From Candidatus Ozemibacteraceae bacterium (GTDB lineage: Bacteria > Muiribacteriota > Ozemobacteria > Ozemobacterales > Ozemobacteraceae), in contig CALLCO010000250.1 in the NCBI GenBank assembly GCA_937998695.1, forward strand, positions 1 to 34,106: DNA of 34,106 bases, in the 5' to 3' direction. The notes under the pieces were generated by a model that searched no databases, was not told where the DNA came from, and saw only the letters and a list, made by a program, of their open reading frames with translations. Positions 3,659 to 15,184 of the stretch are shown here, one piece after another (the stretch's first letter is position 1; every line of letters begins with the position of its first letter). Made by a program: the position numbers and the translations under genes.

Positions 3659-6600
3659 TCATGCATTGCGGGGAGCCGGATGAGAGGATGGGAACAGGTG
3701 GTGATCGATGGCCCGTCGGGTTTCTTCGATGAGTTCGCCGAAATCGGACACGAGACGGCACGCGGTTTCCTGGTCTTGTTTCAGACAGGCGGCTTCGAGC
3801 CGGGCGGCCCAGTCGGCGAGCGCCTGGGCGCAGAACTGGGCGGCGGCTCCCTTGAGGGCGTGCGCCGCTTCCCGGACGCGGATGAGATCCTGGGCGGCCA
3901 GGGCGGAAGGGATGGAGGCGGCATAGCCGGCCAGGCCTTCCCGGAAATTCCCGGCCAGCTTGCGTGCCAAAGGGAGGTTCTGGTTGAGGCTGGCCAGCAG
4001 GGCGCAGTGATCGAAAACCTTGGTCGGGGGAGGGGGGCGGGCCGGGGCCGGCTGGGCGGGGGGCCGACGGACCGTGAGCCGGGCGGCCCAGGAACTGAGC
4101 ATGGCCGCCAGGCGTTGCGGAGTGAGGGGCTTGGCGAGATGGTCGTCCATGCCGGCGGCCAGACAACGTTCCCGGTCCCCTTCCAGCGCGTGGGCGGTCA
4201 GGGCGATGATGGGGATGCGCGAATCGGGGTTCACCGACTGCGCCCCACGGATCCGACGCGTGGCTTCGTATCCGTCGAGGCGGGGCATTTCGCAATCCAT
4301 CAGGATCAGGTCATACTGCTGGGTCTGCCAGGCCTCGATGACCTCCTCCCCGTCGAACACCGCGTCAGCGGAATAGCCGAGCATTTCCAGCAGCTTGAGG
4401 GTGATGGTCTGATTGATGTGATTGTCTTCGGCAAGCAGGATCCGGAGTGGCTTCCAGCCCACCACCCGGCTGCCCTCTCGGGGGGGGGAATCGCCCGACC
4501 GGGCCGGCGTGGCGTCGGGGGCCGGGGTGACAAGGGAAGGGGAGAGCTCCCGGACGAAGGCACCCGGGGTGGTGGGAGCAGCCGGCGGTGGGGAGGCGGG
4601 GGCCCCCTCGTCGAGGGCCAGGTCGGCCAGGCTCTGGACCAGATCCACCGGCCGGACGGGTTCAGGCAGGAAGCTGGCCACCCCGGCCCGGGTCAGGGCA
4701 TCCCGCTCGGACCGGAGATACCGGGGCGTGATGAACAGGAGTTTGGTGTGGGCGATCCGCCCGGCGGCGGGCGCAAGCGTGGCGAGGGTTTCGGTGACCG
4801 GGGCCACCAGGTCGGGTTCGTCGAGGAAAACGAGGTGAAACGGTTGGCGCTCGGCCACGGCCAGGGCCAGGGCGGTCCGGGCTTCTGACAGATCGGCGGC
4901 CTTCTGGACGTAGGCCCCGCCTTCCAAAAGATGGGCGGACAGACGTGTGCACCGGTCGGTATTCAGCACCAGAAGCAGGGTTCGGTGCCCGGCCGCCCAA
5001 TCCTTCCGGGGTTCCAGGGTGGGCTGGGGGGTGAAGGCCGCGGTGAACCAGAAGGTGGAGCCTTTGCCGACGAGGCTCGACACGCCGATCTCGCCACCCA
5101 TCAACTCCACCAGGCGCCGCGCGATCGACAGACCGAGGCCGCTTCCCCCGTGCCGCCGCCGGGAGGCGGAGTCGCCCTGGCTGAACGGCTGGAAGAGACG
5201 TGGCAACATCTCGTGCGGGATGCCGATGCCGGTATCGCGGATCCGGAACCGGATCAGGCCGGCCGGCTTCTGGGGGTCAGCCAGTTCCACGGTCAGGGCT
5301 ACCTCCCCGGTCGAGGTGAACTTGATGGCGTTGCTGAGCAAGTTGTTCAGGACCTGGCGCAGCCGGCTGGGATCACCCCGCAACGACAGAGGGACCTCGG
5401 GCAGAATGCGCCCGGTCAGTTCGATGTCCTTTTCCCGGGCCAGGAAAGCTGTCAGGCGCAAGGTGTCTTCGACCAGGGTCCGCAAGTCGAAATCGAGGGA
5501 TTCCAGCTCGAATCGTCCGGCCTCGATCTTCGACAGGTCGAGAATGTCGTTGAGGATGCCCAGGAGGTTCTCGCTGCTGGTCAACAGGGTCTTGGCGTGG
5601 TGCCGCTGCTCGGCCGACAGGGGCGAGGCCAGCAGGATGTGGGCCAGACCGATGATCCCATTGATGGGGGTACGGATCTCATGGCTCATACTGGCCAGGA
5701 ACCCGCTCTTGGCACGGTTGGCGCTCTCGGCCTGGGCAGCGTGGGTGCGGGACTGGCGGGCGGTCTCGTCGAGGCGCTGGTTGGCATTGATCAGGTCGCG
5801 ATTGACCATGGCCAACTGATCCATGGTGGTGGCCAGGTCGGCTTCCTGACGTTTGCGGGAGGTGATGTCCTGGATGGTGGTCAGAATCGCCGGTTGCCCA
5901 CCGAACTCGATGGGACCGCAATCCACCTCGGCGGGGAAGCATTCTCCCGTCCCTGGCCGGCAACACCGCCATTCGAATCGGGTGGACTGTCCTGCCAGCA
6001 CCTCGTCCCGGCGGGCCCTCAGATCGAGGCGGGGCGGGGCCGGGTGGCTCAAGGTTTCCATGGTCTGCTGGAGGGCTTCCTCACGGGTCATCCGAAACAG
6101 TTCGAGGAAGCGGGCATTGACGGCCAGAATTCGTCCTTGCGCATCTTGGACGAGGGTGGCCATGGGTAGATGGTCAAAGACCTGCCGGATATATCCCTCG
6201 GAGCGGGTCAGGGCATCCCGGGCCGCAGCGCTGGTCTGCTGGAAGGCGAAGAACCCGAGAAGCGCGACCAGGAACAGAAGCATCCAGAGCAGGGGAAACA
6301 AACGGGCGCGATAGACCAGGCGCCCGTGCTCCACGGCATCCTGCTCGATTCCGATCAAGCGAGCGGGAGTTCCCAGGGGAGCCACCGCGAGCAGGGAGGT
6401 TCCCCACCTGGTCGGCAGCGGTCCGAGGACGACGGGATCGCCCCGGATGAGGGTGGGCTCGTTCTCCGGCCAGAGTCGGAGGAGCTGGTCCTCGGCCAAG
6501 GGGGGAAGGGGAGCGACCTGAGCGCTTGGCAAGAGGGAGGGCGGCGGTGTCTCGAACAGCACGTGCAGCGTTCCCGCCTGGCGATCAATCAGGAAAAGGC

Positions 6601-7570
6601 GGCGTCCGGCGGTCTGCACGTGGCCAAGGCGGGCGATTCGGGACCCGTCGAGGGATGGAGGAGAGGATGATCCGAGCGCCTCCCCGGCCTGGTCTTCCCA
6701 TGAAAGGGCTGCCAGGAGGGCCACCGTTTGCCCCAGGGCCAGACGCCGACCCTGATCCACCGCTTCGCCCACCTGGACCGTCCGGCCGATGCCGATGATC
6801 AGGATAAGGGCGATGAAACCCAGGCCGAAACGGCTGTTCCAGCGACTCCAGGCCATCGTGTCGGGGTCGAAATACCGTTGCCGCCCGATCCGGGAGAAAT
6901 GGCGCCACGTGGTGAGGCAGAGAAAAATGGTTAGGACGGTTCCGAGGACCGGCAGGGGAATGCCGCCCAGGGTGGCCACCTCTGCCGGCGAGGTGATGTC
7001 AAAGGGGCAGTACCCCTGGACAACCCCCAGGACCCAGAATACCCCGGTCACCCACAAGACCAGCGACAGCATCGGCAAGCGCCGGCTTTCGGGGTGGGAG
7101 GCCTGCCGGAATCGCCAGACCCCCAAGCCGGCCACCAGGGCGGCGGGCCCTCCCAGCAGGAGGACCAGGGCCCACTGCCGGGTTAGGGGGTGATCGGAGG
7201 CTGCGGCGACCGCCGCCGTGACGGATGGCCCGACGACGGCCAGCCAGGAGGTGGTGGTGCCCGCCGGGGCGGAGGAGAGGGGGCGGGTCATGACCCAGGC
7301 CTGGCGGCCAAATTCGACGAAGGCCAGAAGGGCAACCATGCGGAGGATGCGGAGGGACGGGGCGAGGGGAAGGTGGCTCAGGAGGGACAACCCCAACAAT
7401 TGCAGGATGGCATCCGCCGCCAGGAGCAGGGCGGCCCCCGCCAGCCATTTCCAGGGGAAGGGCCGGGGTTCCAGGGGTGGGAGAGCGAAGGCGATGCACG
7501 CCAACAGGGCCAGGCTGAACCCCTGCAGGAAGGAAAGGATATCGAGTTGTCGGAAGAAAATCTCGGTCAT
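3659..7570 (-). CDS. Membrane hybrid sensor histidine kinase (TM region, PAS, HisKA, HATPase, degenerate REC, REC, HPt)
   Basis: H-box MSHEIRTPINGIIGLAHILL; N/G boxes LNNLLSNAIKFTSTGEV, DTGIGIPHEML, GGSGLGLSIARRLVELMGGEIGV; REC ILLAEDNHINQ...YDLILMDCEMPRLDGYEA; HPt AHALKGAAAQF. ATG at 7570 preferred over the TTG at 7609. Confidence 0.93.
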   Translation of the reverse strand: MTEIFFRQLDILSFLQGFSLALLACIAFALPPLEPRPFPWKWLAGAALLLAADAILQLLGLSLLSHLPLAPSLRILRMVALLAFVEFGRQAWVMTRPLSSAPAGTTTSWLAVVGPSVTAAVAAASDHPLTRQWALVLLLGGPAALVAGLGVWRFRQASHPESRRLPMLSLVLWVTGVFWVLGVVQGYCPFDITSPAEVATLGGIPLPVLGTVLTIFLCLTTWRHFSRIGRQRYFDPDTMAWSRWNSRFGLGFIALILIIGIGRTVQVGEAVDQGRRLALGQTVALLAALSWEDQAGEALGSSSPPSLDGSRIARLGHVQTAGRRLFLIDRQAGTLHVLFETPPPSLLPSAQVAPLPPLAEDQLLRLWPENEPTLIRGDPVVLGPLPTRWGTSLLAVAPLGTPARLIGIEQDAVEHGRLVYRARLFPLLWMLLFLVALLGFFAFQQTSAAARDALTRSEGYIRQVFDHLPMATLVQDAQGRILAVNARFLELFRMTREEALQQTMETLSHPAPPRLDLRARRDEVLAGQSTRFEWRCCRPGTGECFPAEVDCGPIEFGGQPAILTTIQDITSRKRQEADLATTMDQLAMVNRDLINANQRLDETARQSRTHAAQAESANRAKSGFLASMSHEIRTPINGIIGLAHILLASPLSAEQRHHAKTLLTSSENLLGILNDILDLSKIEAGRFELESLDFDLRTLVEDTLRLTAFLAREKDIELTGRILPEVPLSLRGDPSRLRQVLNNLLSNAIKFTSTGEVALTVELADPQKPAGLIRFRIRDTGIGIPHEMLPRLFQPFSQGDSASRRRHGGSGLGLSIARRLVELMGGEIGVSSLVGKGSTFWFTAAFTPQPTLEPRKDWAAGHRTLLLVLNTDRCTRLSAHLLEGGAYVQKAADLSEARTALALAVAERQPFHLVFLDEPDLVAPVTETLATLAPAAGRIAHTKLLFITPRYLRSERDALTRAGVASFLPEPVRPVDLVQSLADLALDEGAPASPPPAAPTTPGAFVRELSPSLVTPAPDATPARSGDSPPREGSRVVGWKPLRILLAEDNHINQTITLKLLEMLGYSADAVFDGEEVIEAWQTQQYDLILMDCEMPRLDGYEATRRIRGAQSVNPDSRIPIIALTAHALEGDRERCLAAGMDDHLAKPLTPQRLAAMLSSWAARLTVRRPPAQPAPARPPPPTKVFDHCALLASLNQNLPLARKLAGNFREGLAGYAASIPSALAAQDLIRVREAAHALKGAAAQFCAQALADWAARLEAACLKQDQETACRLVSDFGELIEETRRAIDHHLFPSSHPAPRNA

Positions 7571-7706
7571 CCTGTATCCCAATAGGATTCTCCGAGGGCC
7601 ACCGGACAAAGTCTGGCCCTTTCACAGATTCGCCTTCCGGCGGGAAACGCACCTCGCGCAGAAGAAGAGGTAACCCCATGAGGCATGCGTCTGTTCCCCG
7701 ATGTGG

Positions 7707-8003: not shown

Positions 8004-9011
8004 ATGCAAGAAAAAGCAACTCACGACATGAGAGAGATCATCTGGGTACCGGAGCGGCGGGGGTATGTATCGGAAGTCCGGTCCCTGCTGGCAGGGGGAG
8101 GCTACCATCTGACCGAAGTCCCCACCGCGGTCGATGGCCTCCGCCTGCTCGACGAGCGCCGGAAGAAAGGCGAAGGCGTGACCTGTCTGCTGACCGGGAT
8201 TGACCTTCCCGACATCCCCGGGACCCGAATGCTGGAAGTGGTGAAGAGCCGTTTCCCTCGTCTGCCCGTGGTGCTGCTCACCGATGCCGGCACTCCGGTC
8301 TTCCCCGGCGATCGCGCGACCCGCTTGGCCGATGGGTTCTTCAAATGGCCCTGCCCTGTCCGGGACGTGACCACCCACCTCCACCGGATCCCGGCGGTCG
8401 ACCCCTTCCAGGTCGAGCGCCATTCCGGGCGCCGACGCAAACGCCCTCACCGGGCGTGGGGCTTGATCCAGCTGGCCGAGGAGGTTGACGCCGAGGCGGT
8501 GTTCCATGCTCTCCGGAACCACCCGCTGGTGACGACCTGTGAAGCGGTCCAGGGGGAGTATGACCTTGCCGTCGCTCTGGCTTCTGGGGTGGCGCAAAAG
8601 ATCGGGCAGGCCTGGCAGGAGCTGGGCCGCTGGCCCGACATCGGCCGGGCCGACCTGCTCCCGGTCGTCGAGCCGCCGCTCGACGAAGCGGTGCAGGAGT
8701 TCCTGGCCGCGTTCCGCCGGCACCAGACCGATCAGATCCGGCGTGGCCAGCAGGCTCGGCCGTCCGTGCTCGTCGAGGAGATCCTGCTGGTCGAGATCGA
8801 TGCCGCCGCCTGCGATCGGGTTTTCCCCCGGCTGGCCTGCGCCGAAGGGGTGGTGGCCTGTGAGGCCGTTCGCGGCCCCTGGCAGGCCGTCGTGCAGGTG
8901 CGGGCCCCCGGCCGGGAGGCGATCCAGCGCCTGATCGGGGAAGGCCTGCGCCCGTTGGAAGGGGTTCTCCGCCTTCGTGATCTCAAGGTTGTCCGTTTGT
9001 CCGAAAACTGA
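8004..9011 (+). CDS. Degenerate receiver domain fused to two tandem Lrp/AsnC ligand-binding (RAM)-like domains
   Basis: REC-like N-terminus (IIWVPERRGYVSEVRSLLAGGGYHLTEVPTAVDGLRLL...LLTGIDLPDIPGTRMLEVVKSRFPRLPVVLLTD...FFKWPCPVRDV), then LIQLAEEVDAEAVFHALRNHPLVTTCEAVQGEYDLAVAL and VEEILLVEIDAAACDRVFPRLACAEGVVACEAVRGPWQAVVQV. ATG at 8004 preceded by GAGG. Confidence 0.75.
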   Translation: MQEKATHDMREIIWVPERRGYVSEVRSLLAGGGYHLTEVPTAVDGLRLLDERRKKGEGVTCLLTGIDLPDIPGTRMLEVVKSRFPRLPVVLLTDAGTPVFPGDRATRLADGFFKWPCPVRDVTTHLHRIPAVDPFQVERHSGRRRKRPHRAWGLIQLAEEVDAEAVFHALRNHPLVTTCEAVQGEYDLAVALASGVAQKIGQAWQELGRWPDIGRADLLPVVEPPLDEAVQEFLAAFRRHQTDQIRRGQQARPSVLVEEILLVEIDAAACDRVFPRLACAEGVVACEAVRGPWQAVVQVRAPGREAIQRLIGEGLRPLEGVLRLRDLKVVRLSEN

Positions 9012-9078: not shown

Positions 9079-9609
9079 ATGCAACCCACCAACAAGGACC
9101 AGGCCGGCGCCCGTCACCACCCGTCGGCGCTCGAACTAAACCTCTGGCAGTCGGGCCAGGAGCCGGGTCAGTTGATTCCCCTGCTGCAGAAGACCCAGGA
9201 GCAGTATGGGTACATTCCCGAGCACGCCATCAAGACGATCAGCAGTATCGCCCGCGTGCCCGAGAGTGAAATCTACGGGGTCATCACCTTCTACAAGCAG
9301 TTCCGGCTCAAGCCGCTGGGGCGGTTTCTCATCCGCCTATGCGACGGAACCGCCTGCCATGTCAACGATGCCAAAACCCTGATGACCCTGATCAAGGAAG
9401 AATTGAAGCTCGACGCGGAAGACACCACCGCTGACGGGCTGTTCACGCTGACTCCCGTGGCCTGTCTCGGGTGTTGCAGCCTGGCCCAGGTCATCATGAT
9501 CAATGATGAGACCTTCGGCCGGCTCACGCCGCCGAAAGTCCGGCAGATCCTCAAGGAGTTCCGGCAACGGGCGGTATCCCCGGCGGCCCAGGGAGGACCC
9601 AAGGTATGA
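9079..9609 (+). CDS. NuoE-like 24 kDa NAD(P)-dependent oxidoreductase subunit ([2Fe-2S])
   Basis: LIPLLQKTQEQYGYIPEHAIKTISSIARVPESEIYGVITFYKQF; Cys motif CDGTAC...CLGCC. Confidence 0.92.
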   Translation: MQPTNKDQAGARHHPSALELNLWQSGQEPGQLIPLLQKTQEQYGYIPEHAIKTISSIARVPESEIYGVITFYKQFRLKPLGRFLIRLCDGTACHVNDAKTLMTLIKEELKLDAEDTTADGLFTLTPVACLGCCSLAQVIMINDETFGRLTPPKVRQILKEFRQRAVSPAAQGGPKV

Positions 9610-11387
9610 GTCGCGCTTCCACCGTCATCACCATCGGCACCGGCACCTGCGGCGTGGCCGCCGGGGCCGACAAGGTTCTCGACGAGGTCCGTCGCCAGCT
9701 GGCGGCCCGGAGTCTGAACGATATCGCCGTGCGCGAGACCGGATGCGTCGGCATGTGCTACAGCGAAGTCCTGGTCGAAGTGGCGGACGGCCGCCACAAG
9801 ACCCTCTACGGCCACGTCACCCCGGAACGAGTCGGGCGGATCATCGACCACCACGTCAAGGGGGGCGAACCGGTGCAGGAATGGGTTGTGCTGATCGACG
9901 AGCACGAAGGCCCGGAGGCTTCCTTCCTCCAACGGCAGAAACGCATCGTCCTGCGTAATTGCGGGCATATCGATCCCCTTTCCCTGAATGACTACTTGGC
10001 CCGTGACGGCTACCGGGCCATCCAGAAAGCGGTCAAGGACATGACCCCCGAGCAGCTCATCGACCTGGTGTCGGCGTCGGGCCTGCGCGGGCGGGGCGGG
10101 GCGGGCTTTCCCACTGGCACCAAGTGGAAGTTCGCCCGCCAGTCTCCAGGCCCCGAGAAATACGTCGTCTGCAACGCGGACGAGGGCGACCCAGGAGCCT
10201 TCATGGACCGCAGCGTCTGCGAGGGCGACCCCCATTCCGTCATCGAAGGGATGATGCTCTGCGGCTATGCCATCGGGGCGTCGCACGGCTACATCTACTG
10301 CCGGGCGGAGTATCCCAAGGCGATCGTCAACCTGCGGCGGGCTATCGACGACCTCAAATCGCGCAAGATGCTGGGCACGAACCTGTTCGGCAGTTCGTTC
10401 GCCTTCGACCTGAAGATCAAGGAGGGGGCCGGCGCCTTCGTCTGCGGCGAGGAGACGGCGCTGATCGCCTCGATCGAGGGCAAACGCGGCATGCCTCGCC
10501 TGCGACCACCCTATCCGGCGGTCAAAGGTCTGTGGGGCAAACCCACCAACATCAACAACGTCGAGACCCTGGCCACCATCCCCTGGATCGTGCTGAACGG
10601 GGCGCCTGCCCTGGCGAGCTTGGGCACCGAGAAGAGCAAGGGCACCAAGGTCTTCGCCATGGCCGGCAAGGTCAAGCGGTCGGGCCTGGTCGAAGTGCCG
10701 ATGGGCATCACCATCAATCAGATCATCTTCGACGTCTGCGGCGGCATCATCGGCGACCGGGCCTTCAAGGCGGTCCAGATGGGCGGTCCCTCGGGCGGGT
10801 GCATCCCCGCCGCGCTGGGCGATACCCTGATCGACTACGAGCAGATCAACAAAACCGGCGCCATCATGGGGTCTGGCGGCATGGTCGTCATGGACGACAC
10901 CACCTGCATGGTCGAGATGGCCCGGTTCTTCCTCGAATTCACCCAGAACGAATCCTGTGGGAAGTGTACAAGCTGTCGGGTTGGTACTCTACGCATGCTC
11001 GAGATCCTCGAGCGGATCGTGGACGGACAGGGGAAGCCGGAAGACATTCCCACCCTGCTCGACCTGGGCGAGCACATCAAGGCCACCGCCCTGTGCGGCC
11101 TGGGGCAGACCGCCCCCAACCCGGTGCTCACTACCTTGAAATATTTCCGTGAGGAATACGAAGCCCACATCCTGCACAAACGCTGCCCGGCTCACAGTTG
11201 TGCCAAGCTGGTCGAGTATGTCATTCATCCCGACAAGTGCGTCGGCTGCACGGTGTGTGCCCGGGAATGCCCGACCAAGGCCATTTCCGGAAACGTCAAG
11301 GTCAAGCACGTCATCGATTCTGAGAAGTGCGTCAAATGCGGCAAGTGCCTCACCGTCTGCCGCTTCGACGCCGTGGCCAAGGAATGA
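9606..11387 (+). CDS. NuoF/HydB-like flavoprotein subunit with N-terminal [2Fe-2S] and C-terminal 2x[4Fe-4S] ferredoxin domains
   Basis: GLRGRGGAGFPTGTKWKFAR, VCNADEGDPGAFMDRS, GAGAYVCGEE-type GAGAFVCGEETALIASIEG, ESCGKCTSCRVG, C-terminal CVGCTVCARECP and CVKCGKCLTVC. Overlaps nuoE stop by ATGA. Confidence 0.94.
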   Translation: MSRASTVITIGTGTCGVAAGADKVLDEVRRQLAARSLNDIAVRETGCVGMCYSEVLVEVADGRHKTLYGHVTPERVGRIIDHHVKGGEPVQEWVVLIDEHEGPEASFLQRQKRIVLRNCGHIDPLSLNDYLARDGYRAIQKAVKDMTPEQLIDLVSASGLRGRGGAGFPTGTKWKFARQSPGPEKYVVCNADEGDPGAFMDRSVCEGDPHSVIEGMMLCGYAIGASHGYIYCRAEYPKAIVNLRRAIDDLKSRKMLGTNLFGSSFAFDLKIKEGAGAFVCGEETALIASIEGKRGMPRLRPPYPAVKGLWGKPTNINNVETLATIPWIVLNGAPALASLGTEKSKGTKVFAMAGKVKRSGLVEVPMGITINQIIFDVCGGIIGDRAFKAVQMGGPSGGCIPAALGDTLIDYEQINKTGAIMGSGGMVVMDDTTCMVEMARFFLEFTQNESCGKCTSCRVGTLRMLEILERIVDGQGKPEDIPTLLDLGEHIKATALCGLGQTAPNPVLTTLKYFREEYEAHILHKRCPAHSCAKLVEYVIHPDKCVGCTVCARECPTKAISGNVKVKHVIDSEKCVKCGKCLTVCRFDAVAKE

Positions 11388-11401
11388 CCAAGGAGCCTCC
11401 G

Positions 11402-14400
11402 ATGAGCAACCCCACCCCGATCCGCCTCACCATCGATGGCCAGCCCTTTACCGCCGCTGCCGGCCAGACCATCCTCCAGGTGGCCCGCGAGCACGGCATC
11501 GACATTCCCACCCTCTGTTACGATCCCCGGTTGAACCCCTACGGGTCCTGCTTGTTGTGTGTGGTCGAGGTCGAGGGCATGCCGCGGCTGGCCCTGGCCT
11601 GCGCGACCGAGATCCGCGACGGCATGAAGGTCGCCACCAGCAACGAGCGTATCTACAAGGCCCGCAAGAACGCCCTCGACATGCTGCTGTCGAACCACTT
11701 CGCCGATTGCCGGGGCAACTGCTACGAGAAATGTCCCGCCGACATCGACGTGCAGGGGTACCTGGCCCTGGCCAACGCCGGAAAGTATCTCGACGCGCTC
11801 GAACTGATCCGTCGGTCCAACCCGTTGCCGATGGTCTGCGGTCGGGTCTGCGTGCGCTACTGCGAGGCCAACTGCCGGCGGCACGACGTCGATGCGTCGG
11901 TCGGGGTCAATTTCATCAAACGGTATGTGGCCGACTTGGCCAGTGACCATCTGCCCAAGCCCATTCCCGCGGAAAAGACGGGTAAACGGGTGGCGGTGGT
12001 GGGGGGCGGACCAGCCGGTCTGACCGCCGCCTACTACCTCGCCAAGGGCGGGCATGCCGTCACCATCTTCGATGCCCAGAGTCATCTGGGCGGAATGCTG
12101 CGCTGGGGCATTCCCGATTACCGGTTGCCCCGCGAAATTCTCGACAAGGAGATCGCCACCATTCTGGCCCTGGGGGTCGAGGTCAAGACCCGACAGGCGC
12201 TCGGCCGCGATTTCACCCTCGACGACCTGAAGGCCCAGGGGTTCGATGCCATCTTCCTCGCTCTGGGCTCCTGGGTGGCCAAGAAGATGCGGGTGAAGAA
12301 CGAGGAGACGCCCGGTGTCTGGGGAGGTATCGACTTCCTGAAGAAGGTGAAGGAAGAGGGCCCGCCCACTCTCACTGGCCATGTGCTGGTGGTCGGCGGG
12401 GGCAATACCGCCATCGACGCCGCCCGTACCGCCCTGCGCTGCCATGCCGGCAAGGTCAGCATATTGTACCGGCGCACCCGCGAGGAGATGCCGGCCGATG
12501 ACCTCGAGATCGAGGATGCCCTGGCGGAGGGCGTCGAGATCAAATTCCTGGTCGCGCCGGTGGAGGTGGTGGCCGAGCACGGCAAGGTCAAGGCCTTGCG
12601 CTGTCAGGAGATGACCCTTGGCGAGCCCGACGAGAGCGGCCGTCGCCGGCCCGTGGTCAAAGAAGGCTCCGATTTCGAGATCCCTTGTACCACGATCATC
12701 GCGGCCATCGGCCAGGACTCCGACCTGTCGGGCCTGAAAAACGAGAAGGTCGGCAAAATCCCCACTACCAAGTGGGGCACCATCATCGTCGATGACGCCA
12801 CCTACGCGACCGATATCCCCGGCGTGTTCGCCGGCGGCGACGTGGTCAGCGGCCCGATGGCGGCCATCGATGCCATCGGGGCCGGGCGCAAGGCCGCCCA
12901 GGTCATCGACCGCTACCTGGAAACGGGGCAGATCAAATCTTTCCCCAAGGAGTTCCTGAGCAAGAAGACCAACCTCGGCGAGATTCCTGCCTCGTATTTC
13001 GCGGCGGTCGAGAAAGTCGAGCGGGCCCACATGCGGCAGACCCCGGCGACCGAGCGGGTGCAGACCTTTGCCGAGGTCGACCATGGCATTCCCCCGACCC
13101 ACGTGTCGGTCGAAACCTCCCGCTGCCTCTCGTGCGGCTGCTCCGACGTGTTCACCTGCGAGGTCAAGAAGTTGGCCGGGGAGTATGGCGTAGACCAGAA
13201 GCGGTTTGCCGGTAAGGTCAAGAAATACGAGGTCGATCACCGCCACCCCTTCATCGCTCTCGATCCCAACAAATGCATCCTGTGCGGCAAATGCGTGCGC
13301 CTGTGCGGTGAGTTGATCGGGGCCGCCGCCCTCGGCTTCGTCCATCGCGGCTTCGAAACCATCGTCCGCCCCTCGCTCGAACGCCCCCTGCAGAAGACGA
13401 CGTGCATCAGTTGCGGCAACTGCATCGATGTCTGCCCCACCGCCGCGATCGCGCCGCGGTTCCCCTTCCAGAAGCCGGGGCCATGGGCGACCAAGGCTCT
13501 GGAAAGCGTGTGCAACCATTGTGGGGTCGGGTGCGGTCTCGTCTTTCACAAGGTCAACGATGCCATCTGGTACATCAGCGCCAAGCCGCAATCGGCTCAC
13601 GTGCCCGGGCAGATCTGCTTCAAGGGGCGGTTTGCCCACGAGTTTCTGCGTTCCCCCGACCGGTTGCGTGAGCCGACCGTGGGCGTCGGCGAAGCCCGGA
13701 AGGCGGTCGCCCTCGATGCCGCCCTCGACGCGGCGGTGGAGGGTCTGCAGAAGGTTGCCGCCACCCACGGACCCGACAGCCTGGCGTTCTTCATCTCCCC
13801 CCGGGCCACGAACGAGGAGATCTACCTCACGCAGAAGCTGGCCCGCGAGGCCTTCGGCTGCAACAATGTCAGCACCCTGGCTGCCGTGGTCGGCCTCAAC
13901 GTGGGACAACCCTTGCAGGCCGCCACGGGAGCCATTGCTTCCAGCGCCACCATTTCCCAACTGACCAAGACCGACCTGATCGTCATCCTCCATGCCGATC
14001 CCGACCAGGACAACCCGGTGCTCGGCTTTGCCATTCGGCAGGCGCATCGGCGGGGGGCGAAGGTTGTGGCGATCGGCGCCACGCCGACCGCATTGGCCGA
14101 AACCTGCGATCTGTGGCTCGACCCCCGCAAGGGCAGTTCGCCGGTTCTCCTGCGGGCCCTCCTGGCCGAACTGGTGCGGGAAAAGGCCTACCTCGAGAAA
14201 TCGGTGGTGGGGCTGGCCAATTGGCCAGCCCTACGGGCCGAGGCCACCCTCTCCCTCGAGGCGGCCGAGGCGACCACCGGGGTGAGTGCCAAGAAAATGG
14301 CCTTTCTGGCCGATCTGCTCGCCGTCTCCCACCGGTCCGTCGTGTTCGTCGCCCCGGGCGATTCGGGGGAGGCTCACGCCAACGCCGATTTGCAGGCCAT

Positions 14401-15184
14401 CAGCAATCTTCTTTTGCTTCGTGACCTCTACGGCAAGAAAGGGAGCGGCCTGCTCCTCACCCGTTCCTCCCCCAACGGGCAGGGGCTGCTCGATCTTTTC
14501 GCCAGTCCCGAAAGCGCCCAGAACCGCCTGGTCGGCATGCAGAACCCCCGCCTGACGGGGGCGATGTCGATCGGCGATCGGCGGGCCCACCTGCAGGCCG
14601 GCCGGATCAAAGGCTTGTTCATCCTGAACGAGGACATCAGCTGCGTGCCGTTGGGCGAGACCCTGCTCCGGAACGCCGAATACGCGGTGGCCATGGATCT
14701 TTTCCCGACCGGTACCACCCGGCTGGCCCACGTGGTGTTGCCGGGGAGCGCCTTCGCCGAAACCGATGGCAGTGTCACCTCGCTGGATCGCCGCGTGCAG
14801 GCTTTTTCCCATGTCCTGCCCCCGCCGGCCGGACAGGCTGGCTGGGAGATCATTCTCAGACTCTGGCAGCGGGTTCTTCGCCGCCATGTCCTGACCCTGC
14901 AGGAGGTCCGATCGGAAATCGGACGGATGAATCCCCATTACCATCCGATCGTCCGGGTCGGGCGGAACGGCAGCTTCCACTGGAACGAGACCGAAGATGG
15001 TGGTGATGTGCTGTTCGCCAGGGGTTTCCTGACGGACGACCGTCAGCCGCGTTTCCTCAGCCCGGCTCTCGAGATCGTCCCCGACCCCGAGCGTCAGACT
15101 CTGGGAGCCGATCTGTCCCGCTCCTCCTGCCTGGGCCCCGCGGTCGCGGCCCAGCGCCGACGTCTTCAGGAAGAGGCCGGCTGA
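11402..15184 (+). CDS. Chimeric redox subunit: [2Fe-2S] ferredoxin + GltD/NfnB-like FAD/NAD(P) oxidoreductase + ferredoxin + NuoG/FdhA-like molybdopterin-fold domain
   Basis: LCYDPRLNPYGSCLLCVVEV; KRVAVVGGGPAGLTAAYYLAKGGHAVTIFD...GGMLRWGIPDYRLP; VVGGGNTAIDAARTALR; CILCGKCVRLC; CISCGNCIDVCPTAAI; VCNHCGVGCGL; QICFKGRFAHEFLRSPDRL. SD AAGGAG upstream of ATG. Confidence 0.93.
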   Translation: MSNPTPIRLTIDGQPFTAAAGQTILQVAREHGIDIPTLCYDPRLNPYGSCLLCVVEVEGMPRLALACATEIRDGMKVATSNERIYKARKNALDMLLSNHFADCRGNCYEKCPADIDVQGYLALANAGKYLDALELIRRSNPLPMVCGRVCVRYCEANCRRHDVDASVGVNFIKRYVADLASDHLPKPIPAEKTGKRVAVVGGGPAGLTAAYYLAKGGHAVTIFDAQSHLGGMLRWGIPDYRLPREILDKEIATILALGVEVKTRQALGRDFTLDDLKAQGFDAIFLALGSWVAKKMRVKNEETPGVWGGIDFLKKVKEEGPPTLTGHVLVVGGGNTAIDAARTALRCHAGKVSILYRRTREEMPADDLEIEDALAEGVEIKFLVAPVEVVAEHGKVKALRCQEMTLGEPDESGRRRPVVKEGSDFEIPCTTIIAAIGQDSDLSGLKNEKVGKIPTTKWGTIIVDDATYATDIPGVFAGGDVVSGPMAAIDAIGAGRKAAQVIDRYLETGQIKSFPKEFLSKKTNLGEIPASYFAAVEKVERAHMRQTPATERVQTFAEVDHGIPPTHVSVETSRCLSCGCSDVFTCEVKKLAGEYGVDQKRFAGKVKKYEVDHRHPFIALDPNKCILCGKCVRLCGELIGAAALGFVHRGFETIVRPSLERPLQKTTCISCGNCIDVCPTAAIAPRFPFQKPGPWATKALESVCNHCGVGCGLVFHKVNDAIWYISAKPQSAHVPGQICFKGRFAHEFLRSPDRLREPTVGVGEARKAVALDAALDAAVEGLQKVAATHGPDSLAFFISPRATNEEIYLTQKLAREAFGCNNVSTLAAVVGLNVGQPLQAATGAIASSATISQLTKTDLIVILHADPDQDNPVLGFAIRQAHRRGAKVVAIGATPTALAETCDLWLDPRKGSSPVLLRALLAELVREKAYLEKSVVGLANWPALRAEATLSLEAAEATTGVSAKKMAFLADLLAVSHRSVVFVAPGDSGEAHANADLQAISNLLLLRDLYGKKGSGLLLTRSSPNGQGLLDLFASPESAQNRLVGMQNPRLTGAMSIGDRRAHLQAGRIKGLFILNEDISCVPLGETLLRNAEYAVAMDLFPTGTTRLAHVVLPGSAFAETDGSVTSLDRRVQAFSHVLPPPAGQAGWEIILRLWQRVLRRHVLTLQEVRSEIGRMNPHYHPIVRVGRNGSFHWNETEDGGDVLFARGFLTDDRQPRFLSPALEIVPDPERQTLGADLSRSSCLGPAVAAQRRRLQEEAG

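Follow-up and report, generated by a model that had tools for sequence, protein, structure and literature searches.

The gene at positions 8004..9011 on the forward strand of a contig from a Candidatus Ozemibacteraceae bacterium encodes a signalling protein with a predicted small-molecule-binding part and no DNA-binding part. It belongs to a family that occurs in six bacterial phyla and has apparently not been described. We regard these proteins as response regulators whose output is a tandem of RAM domains and which are tied to an electron-bifurcating enzyme; the copy in our window (the whole stretch analysed, 34,106 bases, which is one entire contig among the 324 of genome G000) is a derived, phosphorylation-dead member. 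The function that we put forward, at somewhat less than even confidence, is that of a ligand-sensing direct regulator of the transhydrogenase StnABC, controlled by phosphorylation in most lineages and independent of it here.

Domain organization and predicted structure

The open reading frame 8004..9011 is a real gene, the first of its operon, with a product of 335 aa, as supported by its translation, Pfam matches and homologs. Throughout this work the genus refers to that of Candidatus Ozemobacter sibiricus, of which three genomes were compared, the window's included. Gene and gene order are retained in all three, the other two having orthologs that are 73% and 60% identical, and distant homologs are likewise placed, so that neither the gene nor its position is a matter of chance.

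In Pfam, two stretches of the protein match the RAM domain (AsnC_trans_reg, PF01037) at 9.5e-13, and the receiver domain (Response_reg, PF00072) gives a weak match of 1.3e-4, under the gathering score; no helix-turn-helix (HTH) is matched even at E<=10, and none is found in seven homologs at E<=0.1. The AlphaFold2 model used here was computed from a 10-sequence alignment (pLDDT 83.6, pTM 0.78), in place of a run on the three genus sequences only which gave a pLDDT of 56. It consists of a (beta-alpha)5 receiver at residues 10-128 (8031..8387) and two RAM domains of beta-alpha-beta-beta-alpha-beta topology at residues 149-221 (8448..8666) and 257-330 (8772..8993), the latter two being linked by a helix at residues 228-246 (8685..8741), all encoded on the forward strand. 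In this model the receiver occupies the place of the N-terminal HTH of Lrp/AsnC regulators; the protein has the RAM domain of that group without its HTH. A Foldseek search of the model against PDB returned NirDL (4czc, E=1e-6) as the best match and then many receivers. The first-pass annotation, made from the letters of the sequence, had proposed a receiver-like part followed by two AsnC/RAM-like segments with no HTH, and both the Pfam results and the structural check that it suggested bear this out.

The G-x-x-D loop is present in the first RAM domain (VQGEYD) and, in the alignment, conserved throughout the tandem-RAM family; in the second domain it is degenerate (VRGPWQ, without the Asp), and in most members of the family it is gone. 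The cysteines preceding the two loops, C179 and C286, are highly conserved in the family. Since a Cys ahead of the loop is common in RAM domains generally, we make no redox-sensing claim for them. The basic linker RRRKRPHR of the window is restricted to the genus, and we do not read it as a DNA-binding element.

Loss of the phosphorylation site

When aligned with homologs whose receivers are intact, the receiver of the window has Pro16-Glu17 (8049-8054) at the acidic pair, Gly65 (8196-8198) at the phospho-Asp position and Trp115 (8346-8348) at the conserved Lys position, the last being Trp, Trp and Gly across the genus; the Thr of beta4 is Thr93, and is Ala in one genus ortholog. The five phosphotransfer positions hence read P, E, G, T and W, so that Glu17 is the only acid retained, together with the Thr in 2/3 orthologs. 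The Pro at D+4 and the Gly at D+8 are retained as well. The loss of the acidic pair and the Gly in place of the phosphoacceptor Asp had already been noticed in the first-pass annotation, and the alignment confirms them. Its further suggestion, that a Lys-Pro-like FFKWP is kept, has to be dropped: the 'K' of FFKWP stands one residue before the conserved Lys position and is Gln in one ortholog, and therefore the Lys-Pro motif is not retained.

The domain thus has the (beta-alpha)5 fold of response regulators without their phosphotransfer residue set, which no member of the genus has in full, and it corresponds to the definition of a pseudo-receiver, namely a receiver fold without the key phosphotransfer residues (PMC12632262). 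With these substitutions the receiver of the window is predicted to be incapable of canonical phospho-chemistry. The dN/dS of the receiver within the genus is about 0.13-0.22, approximate values given that many dS estimates are close to 1 or higher, and they point to continued purifying selection on the domain there. The pseudo-receiver is thus a retained one and not a decaying one.

The downstream operon

The start of nuoE lies 67 bp downstream of the gene, and ATGA overlaps follow at nuoE/nuoF and nuoF/stnC, which agrees with the earlier proposal that the gene leads a redox operon. The nuoE-type gene (9079..9609, forward, as are the next two; start taken from an AAAGGAG SD sequence and ATG) encodes a thioredoxin-like [2Fe-2S] subunit (PF01257), StnA, whose top PDB matches are 9n5u_C, 9bov_C and 8oh5_A, with 9bov_C and 8oh5_A being the Stn subunits among them. 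The nuoF/HydB-type gene (9606..11387) encodes StnB, with S. ovata StnB as its best PDB match (8oh5_B, E=1.7e-252), and the third gene (11384..15184) encodes StnC, a NuoG-GltD-molybdopterin-like fusion of 1,266 aa with the Pfam domains Fer2_4, Fer4_20, Pyr_redox_2, Nqo3 and Molybdopterin; in the PDB it is matched best, and over nearly its full length, by 9bov_A (E=1.6e-245) and 8oh5_C (3.8e-229).

The structure 8OH5 is the StnABC complex of S. ovata, in which StnC carries NuoG-like and GltD-like NADPH domains and bifurcation is the task of the StnAB module (PMC10482914); the name Nfn-Bfu is used for an enzyme of this kind (PMC9304861). The three genes of the window correspond to this complex subunit by subunit and nearly over the full length (PDB 8OH5; PMC10482914, PMC7483475, PMC9304861): a NuoE-like StnA, a HydB/NuoF-like StnB with extra Fe-S domains, and a NuoG plus GltD fusion as StnC. 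By this correspondence the operon is assigned to the StnABC type (Sporomusa-type Nfn, Nfn-Bfu), that is, a predicted electron-bifurcating NADPH/NAD/ferredoxin transhydrogenase. The earlier description as a NuoE/NuoF/NuoG-GltD complex was right in the types of the subunits; what they form, however, is not an unassigned Nuo-like complex but this known enzyme (PMC10482914, PMC9304861).

Distribution of the family and its linkage to stn operons

A search with the single sequence found genus orthologs and plain receivers only. With a profile of three sequences, run on 382 genomes sampled mostly as one per family across Bacteria, seven more full-length REC-RAM-RAM proteins were found, and their genes are all immediately 5' of nuoE-nuoF, with stnC next where the contig permits. 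With 10-sequence profiles the family is present in 3/3, 1/1, 3/10 and 36/42 genomes of four other phyla. Consequently the notion of a genus-specific oddity, considered as well, was rejected once the profile search had brought up the wider family. Moreover, a RAM-RAM form without a receiver occurs in three genomes (G335, G382 and G384), which belong to one family of a sixth phylum, and it holds the same place before nuoE.

Altogether nuoE/stnA is immediately downstream on the same strand in 43/43 tandem-RAM loci from six phyla, a count that leaves out a few truncated matches of the 10-sequence-profile search. The first-pass annotation had made its reading depend on an association with the redox genes beyond the single locus, and this comes out strongly in its favour, as the tandem-RAM gene lies directly upstream of nuoE/nuoF/stnC in every locus examined. 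To try to refute the link, a profile of the RAM tandem only was run on the 382 genomes: there were 11 two-domain matches at E<=3.4e-59, all 11 of them stn-linked, followed by a gap down to 1.1e-11, where the matches are short and have a single RAM domain.

The link is a one-way one, from REC-RAM-RAM to stn and not from stn to REC-RAM-RAM. A StnC-like match at E<=1e-130 is found in 50 of the 382 genomes, and many such operons have no REC-RAM-RAM gene; in the sister genus of Ozemobacter, for example, the stn operons have a glutamate dehydrogenase in its place. Stn as such can therefore do without the protein. In a StnC tree all carriers fall inside one group of 26 rows (SH-aLRT 93 by a quick method), and the gene was gained or lost about five times; G310 and G028 were scored as lacking it though their contigs are too short to tell. 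The pairwise distances of the REC-RAM-RAM protein and of StnC are correlated (Mantel r=0.80, reached in 0/5000 permutations).

Among the 40 members with a receiver, 36 have the full phosphorylation site, and the four receivers without the Asp are those of the Ozemobacter genus (3/3) and of G341, where the Asp became Ala. The phosphorylation-independence claimed earlier for this protein thus holds for the receiver of the window and not for the family as a whole, and it is a derived state of the Ozemobacter genus. As the RAM-only members hold the same place, the RAM-RAM part is the constant one and the receiver is a variable input, which may be live, dead or absent.

Neighbouring genes

In the window a hybrid histidine kinase (PAS-HisKA-HATPase-REC-Hpt by Pfam; 3659..7609, reverse strand) is divergent to the REC-RAM-RAM gene, with synteny in 3/3 genomes of the genus. 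By eye, this kinase seems to have a second degenerate receiver-like stretch before the recognised REC (LLLVLNTDRCTRL...VFLDEPDL). Elsewhere stnC is directly followed by a histidine kinase and a sigma54 NtrC-type regulator, as identified by Pfam in L093 and L095, and apparently also in L207, L208 and L244 (from sequence starts), which makes several phyla in all.

In the phylum of G279 the gene lies between NfnAB-like genes and stnABC in 6/6 loci inspected closely, and in several loci a glutamate dehydrogenase is divergent and upstream of it. The loci L239-L244 of one phylum (e.g. L239:4138-13718) are arranged as nfnA-nfnB-[REC-RAM-RAM]-nuoE-nuoF-stnC, and a single apparent operon thereby holds two distinct electron-bifurcating NADPH transhydrogenases. 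Glutamate dehydrogenase genes also adjoin stn operons with or without REC-RAM-RAM in several unrelated lineages (L060:430-1716, L061:4684-5970, L096, L097, L141, L146, L150 and L242-L244), which suggests that Stn is tied to glutamate metabolism. Near the stn operons without REC-RAM-RAM at L125-L127 (G187, G325, G258) we saw by eye HATPase-type-like, PHP-domain-like and short regulatory-looking genes, perhaps an alternative regulatory set.

Apart from this gene, Pfam detects RAM domains in the three genus genomes only in AhbA/AhbB-like siroheme decarboxylase subunits beside hemL; such a pair adjoins a hemL-like aminotransferase gene at L066:391-834 (with an overlapping downstream frame) and at L068:1276-2223. 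A DNA-binding Lrp as partner in the genus was accordingly rejected, and the control of another regulator, as the first-pass annotation had it, is unlikely in the form of Lrp hetero-oligomers.

Proposed function

Based on the above, the protein may be understood as a dedicated, non-DNA-binding and post-translational regulator of the StnABC encoded by the next three genes. The RAM tandem would be its working part and would probably bind an amino acid or a close metabolite, for which glutamate, glutamine or 2-oxoglutarate are our best guesses. Once docked on StnABC or on a Stn-bound partner, it would adjust the exchange NADPH <-> NADH + reduced ferredoxin to what biosynthesis demands. The N-terminal receiver of most lineages would in addition let a kinase act on the protein by phosphorylation; in several cases the kinase gene comes right after stnC. 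Receivers of the Ozemobacter genus have lost the site while purifying selection persists; for this reason we take the receiver there as probably a fixed docking or packing domain, with control by the RAM ligand alone. What we infer here is that the protein contacts Stn physically, which ligand it binds and in which direction it exerts control. Because the protein has no DNA-binding domain, no Lrp partner is detected and the enzyme is the constant neighbour, our best reading is that a RAM ligand governs StnABC directly through this protein. The glutamate dehydrogenase that adjoins stn operons in several lineages also speaks for it, and elsewhere the effectors of RAM domains are amino acids, and 2-oxoglutarate too for one stand-alone RAM protein (PMC2995911). 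On the other side, the second RAM domain has no G-x-x-D loop in most members, and many stn operons do without the protein.

The histidine kinase and sigma54-type regulator found after stnC in several relatives mean that the protein could act on this signalling pair instead: its receiver or pseudo-receiver and RAM tandem would bind the kinase or the NtrC-type regulator and so set the expression of the operon. We hold this control of transcription by protein contact to be possible though rather unlikely. The divergent hybrid kinase conserved in Ozemobacter is in its favour, and pseudo-receivers acting by binding other two-component parts have been discussed (PMC12632262). However, the kinase pair is not universal, as the upstream neighbour in G279 and G142 is glutamate dehydrogenase and RAM-RAM stands by itself in G335; a scan of the regions upstream of 13 loci for strict sigma54 -24/-12 sites found none, though it demands near-consensus, so that weaker sites are possible; and the constant neighbour is an enzyme and not a kinase.

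The place of the gene directly upstream of the subunits would also fit a chaperone that helps the multi-cluster StnC, a member of the molybdopterin oxidoreductase superfamily, to assemble or mature, in the way NapD serves NapA. RAM and NapD have the ferredoxin-like fold in common, and two homologs give weak NapD matches in Pfam (0.0012 and 0.017). These matches are far under the gathering score, the gene is missing from many Stn operons, and a receiver that can be phosphorylated suits signalling better than folding help, which makes a chaperone improbable. The strict operon linkage, the co-divergence with StnC and the RAM-only family without a receiver could likewise be read as signs of an extra structural subunit that has no regulatory ligand and keeps its receiver as a relic. 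Yet a full phosphorylation site in 36/40 receivers is unexpected of a structural relic, and the S. ovata Stn structure contains nothing beyond StnABC (PMC10482914), with no REC-RAM-RAM protein described in the papers found; this reading is thus very doubtful. Finally, that the protein is an enzyme with a RAM fold, for instance a siroheme decarboxylase, is hardly credible, since the Foldseek match to NirDL that speaks for it has a TM of 0.39 and an rmsd of about 10 A, the HTH half kept in NirDL/AhbAB is lacking by Pfam, and the genus already has its AhbA/AhbB-like genes beside hemL, with no haem genes seen adjoining the REC-RAM-RAM gene.

Relation to known systems

The closest precedent found is that of the thaumarchaeal response regulators with a NitrOD1 output domain, which has been suggested to be a variant of the Lrp/AsnC ligand-binding domain (PMC5847659). 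These are archaeal, with one possible RAM variant and no link to a transhydrogenase described there, whereas the present family combines two clear RAM domains with a fixed partner in the operon. The stand-alone RAM proteins DM1 and STS042 likewise have RAM without HTH and have amino-acid effectors (PMC2995911), but with a single RAM, no receiver, and not the tandem, the receiver and the lack of a detected Lrp partner seen here. The pseudo-receivers FrzS, CmrT and WhiI share the receiver fold without the phospho-Asp and act, or are thought to act, through protein-protein contact (PMC12632262); they have other outputs, while here a RAM tandem stands by an enzyme operon and most of the family keeps the site. 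The siroheme decarboxylases NirDL/AhbAB (PDB 4CZC; PMC4145669) are derived from Lrp/AsnC and do not regulate DNA, and NirDL has two RAM units; they are, however, enzymes which keep their HTH halves and have no receiver.

In the open-licence PMC literature, of which the coverage was partial, we found no description of a REC plus RAM architecture or of Stn regulators, NitrOD1 being the sole possible precedent, nor of a dedicated regulator of a Stn-type enzyme; as this was the only literature searched, a missing report is not proof of novelty.

Anaerobes set their NADPH/NADH/ferredoxin balance by means of electron-bifurcating enzymes. We suggest, still more tentatively than the function proposed above, that a new response-regulator family, present in at least five phyla and with a receiver-less form in a sixth, has a tandem-RAM output that would directly control an electron-bifurcating transhydrogenase, so that the enzyme itself would be the point where two-component phosphorylation and amino-acid sensing are coupled to the NADPH/NADH/ferredoxin ratio, with natural variants in which the receiver is live, dead or absent. 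A conserved partner which joins an input by phosphorylation to a sensor of the amino-acid type, and which comes in these three receiver forms, would make the regulation of bifurcation directly testable. Moreover, how pseudo-receivers retain function without phosphorylation has been termed a mystery for bacteria (PMC12632262), and the members with live and dead receivers would offer a natural comparison for pseudo-receiver function after the loss of phosphorylation.
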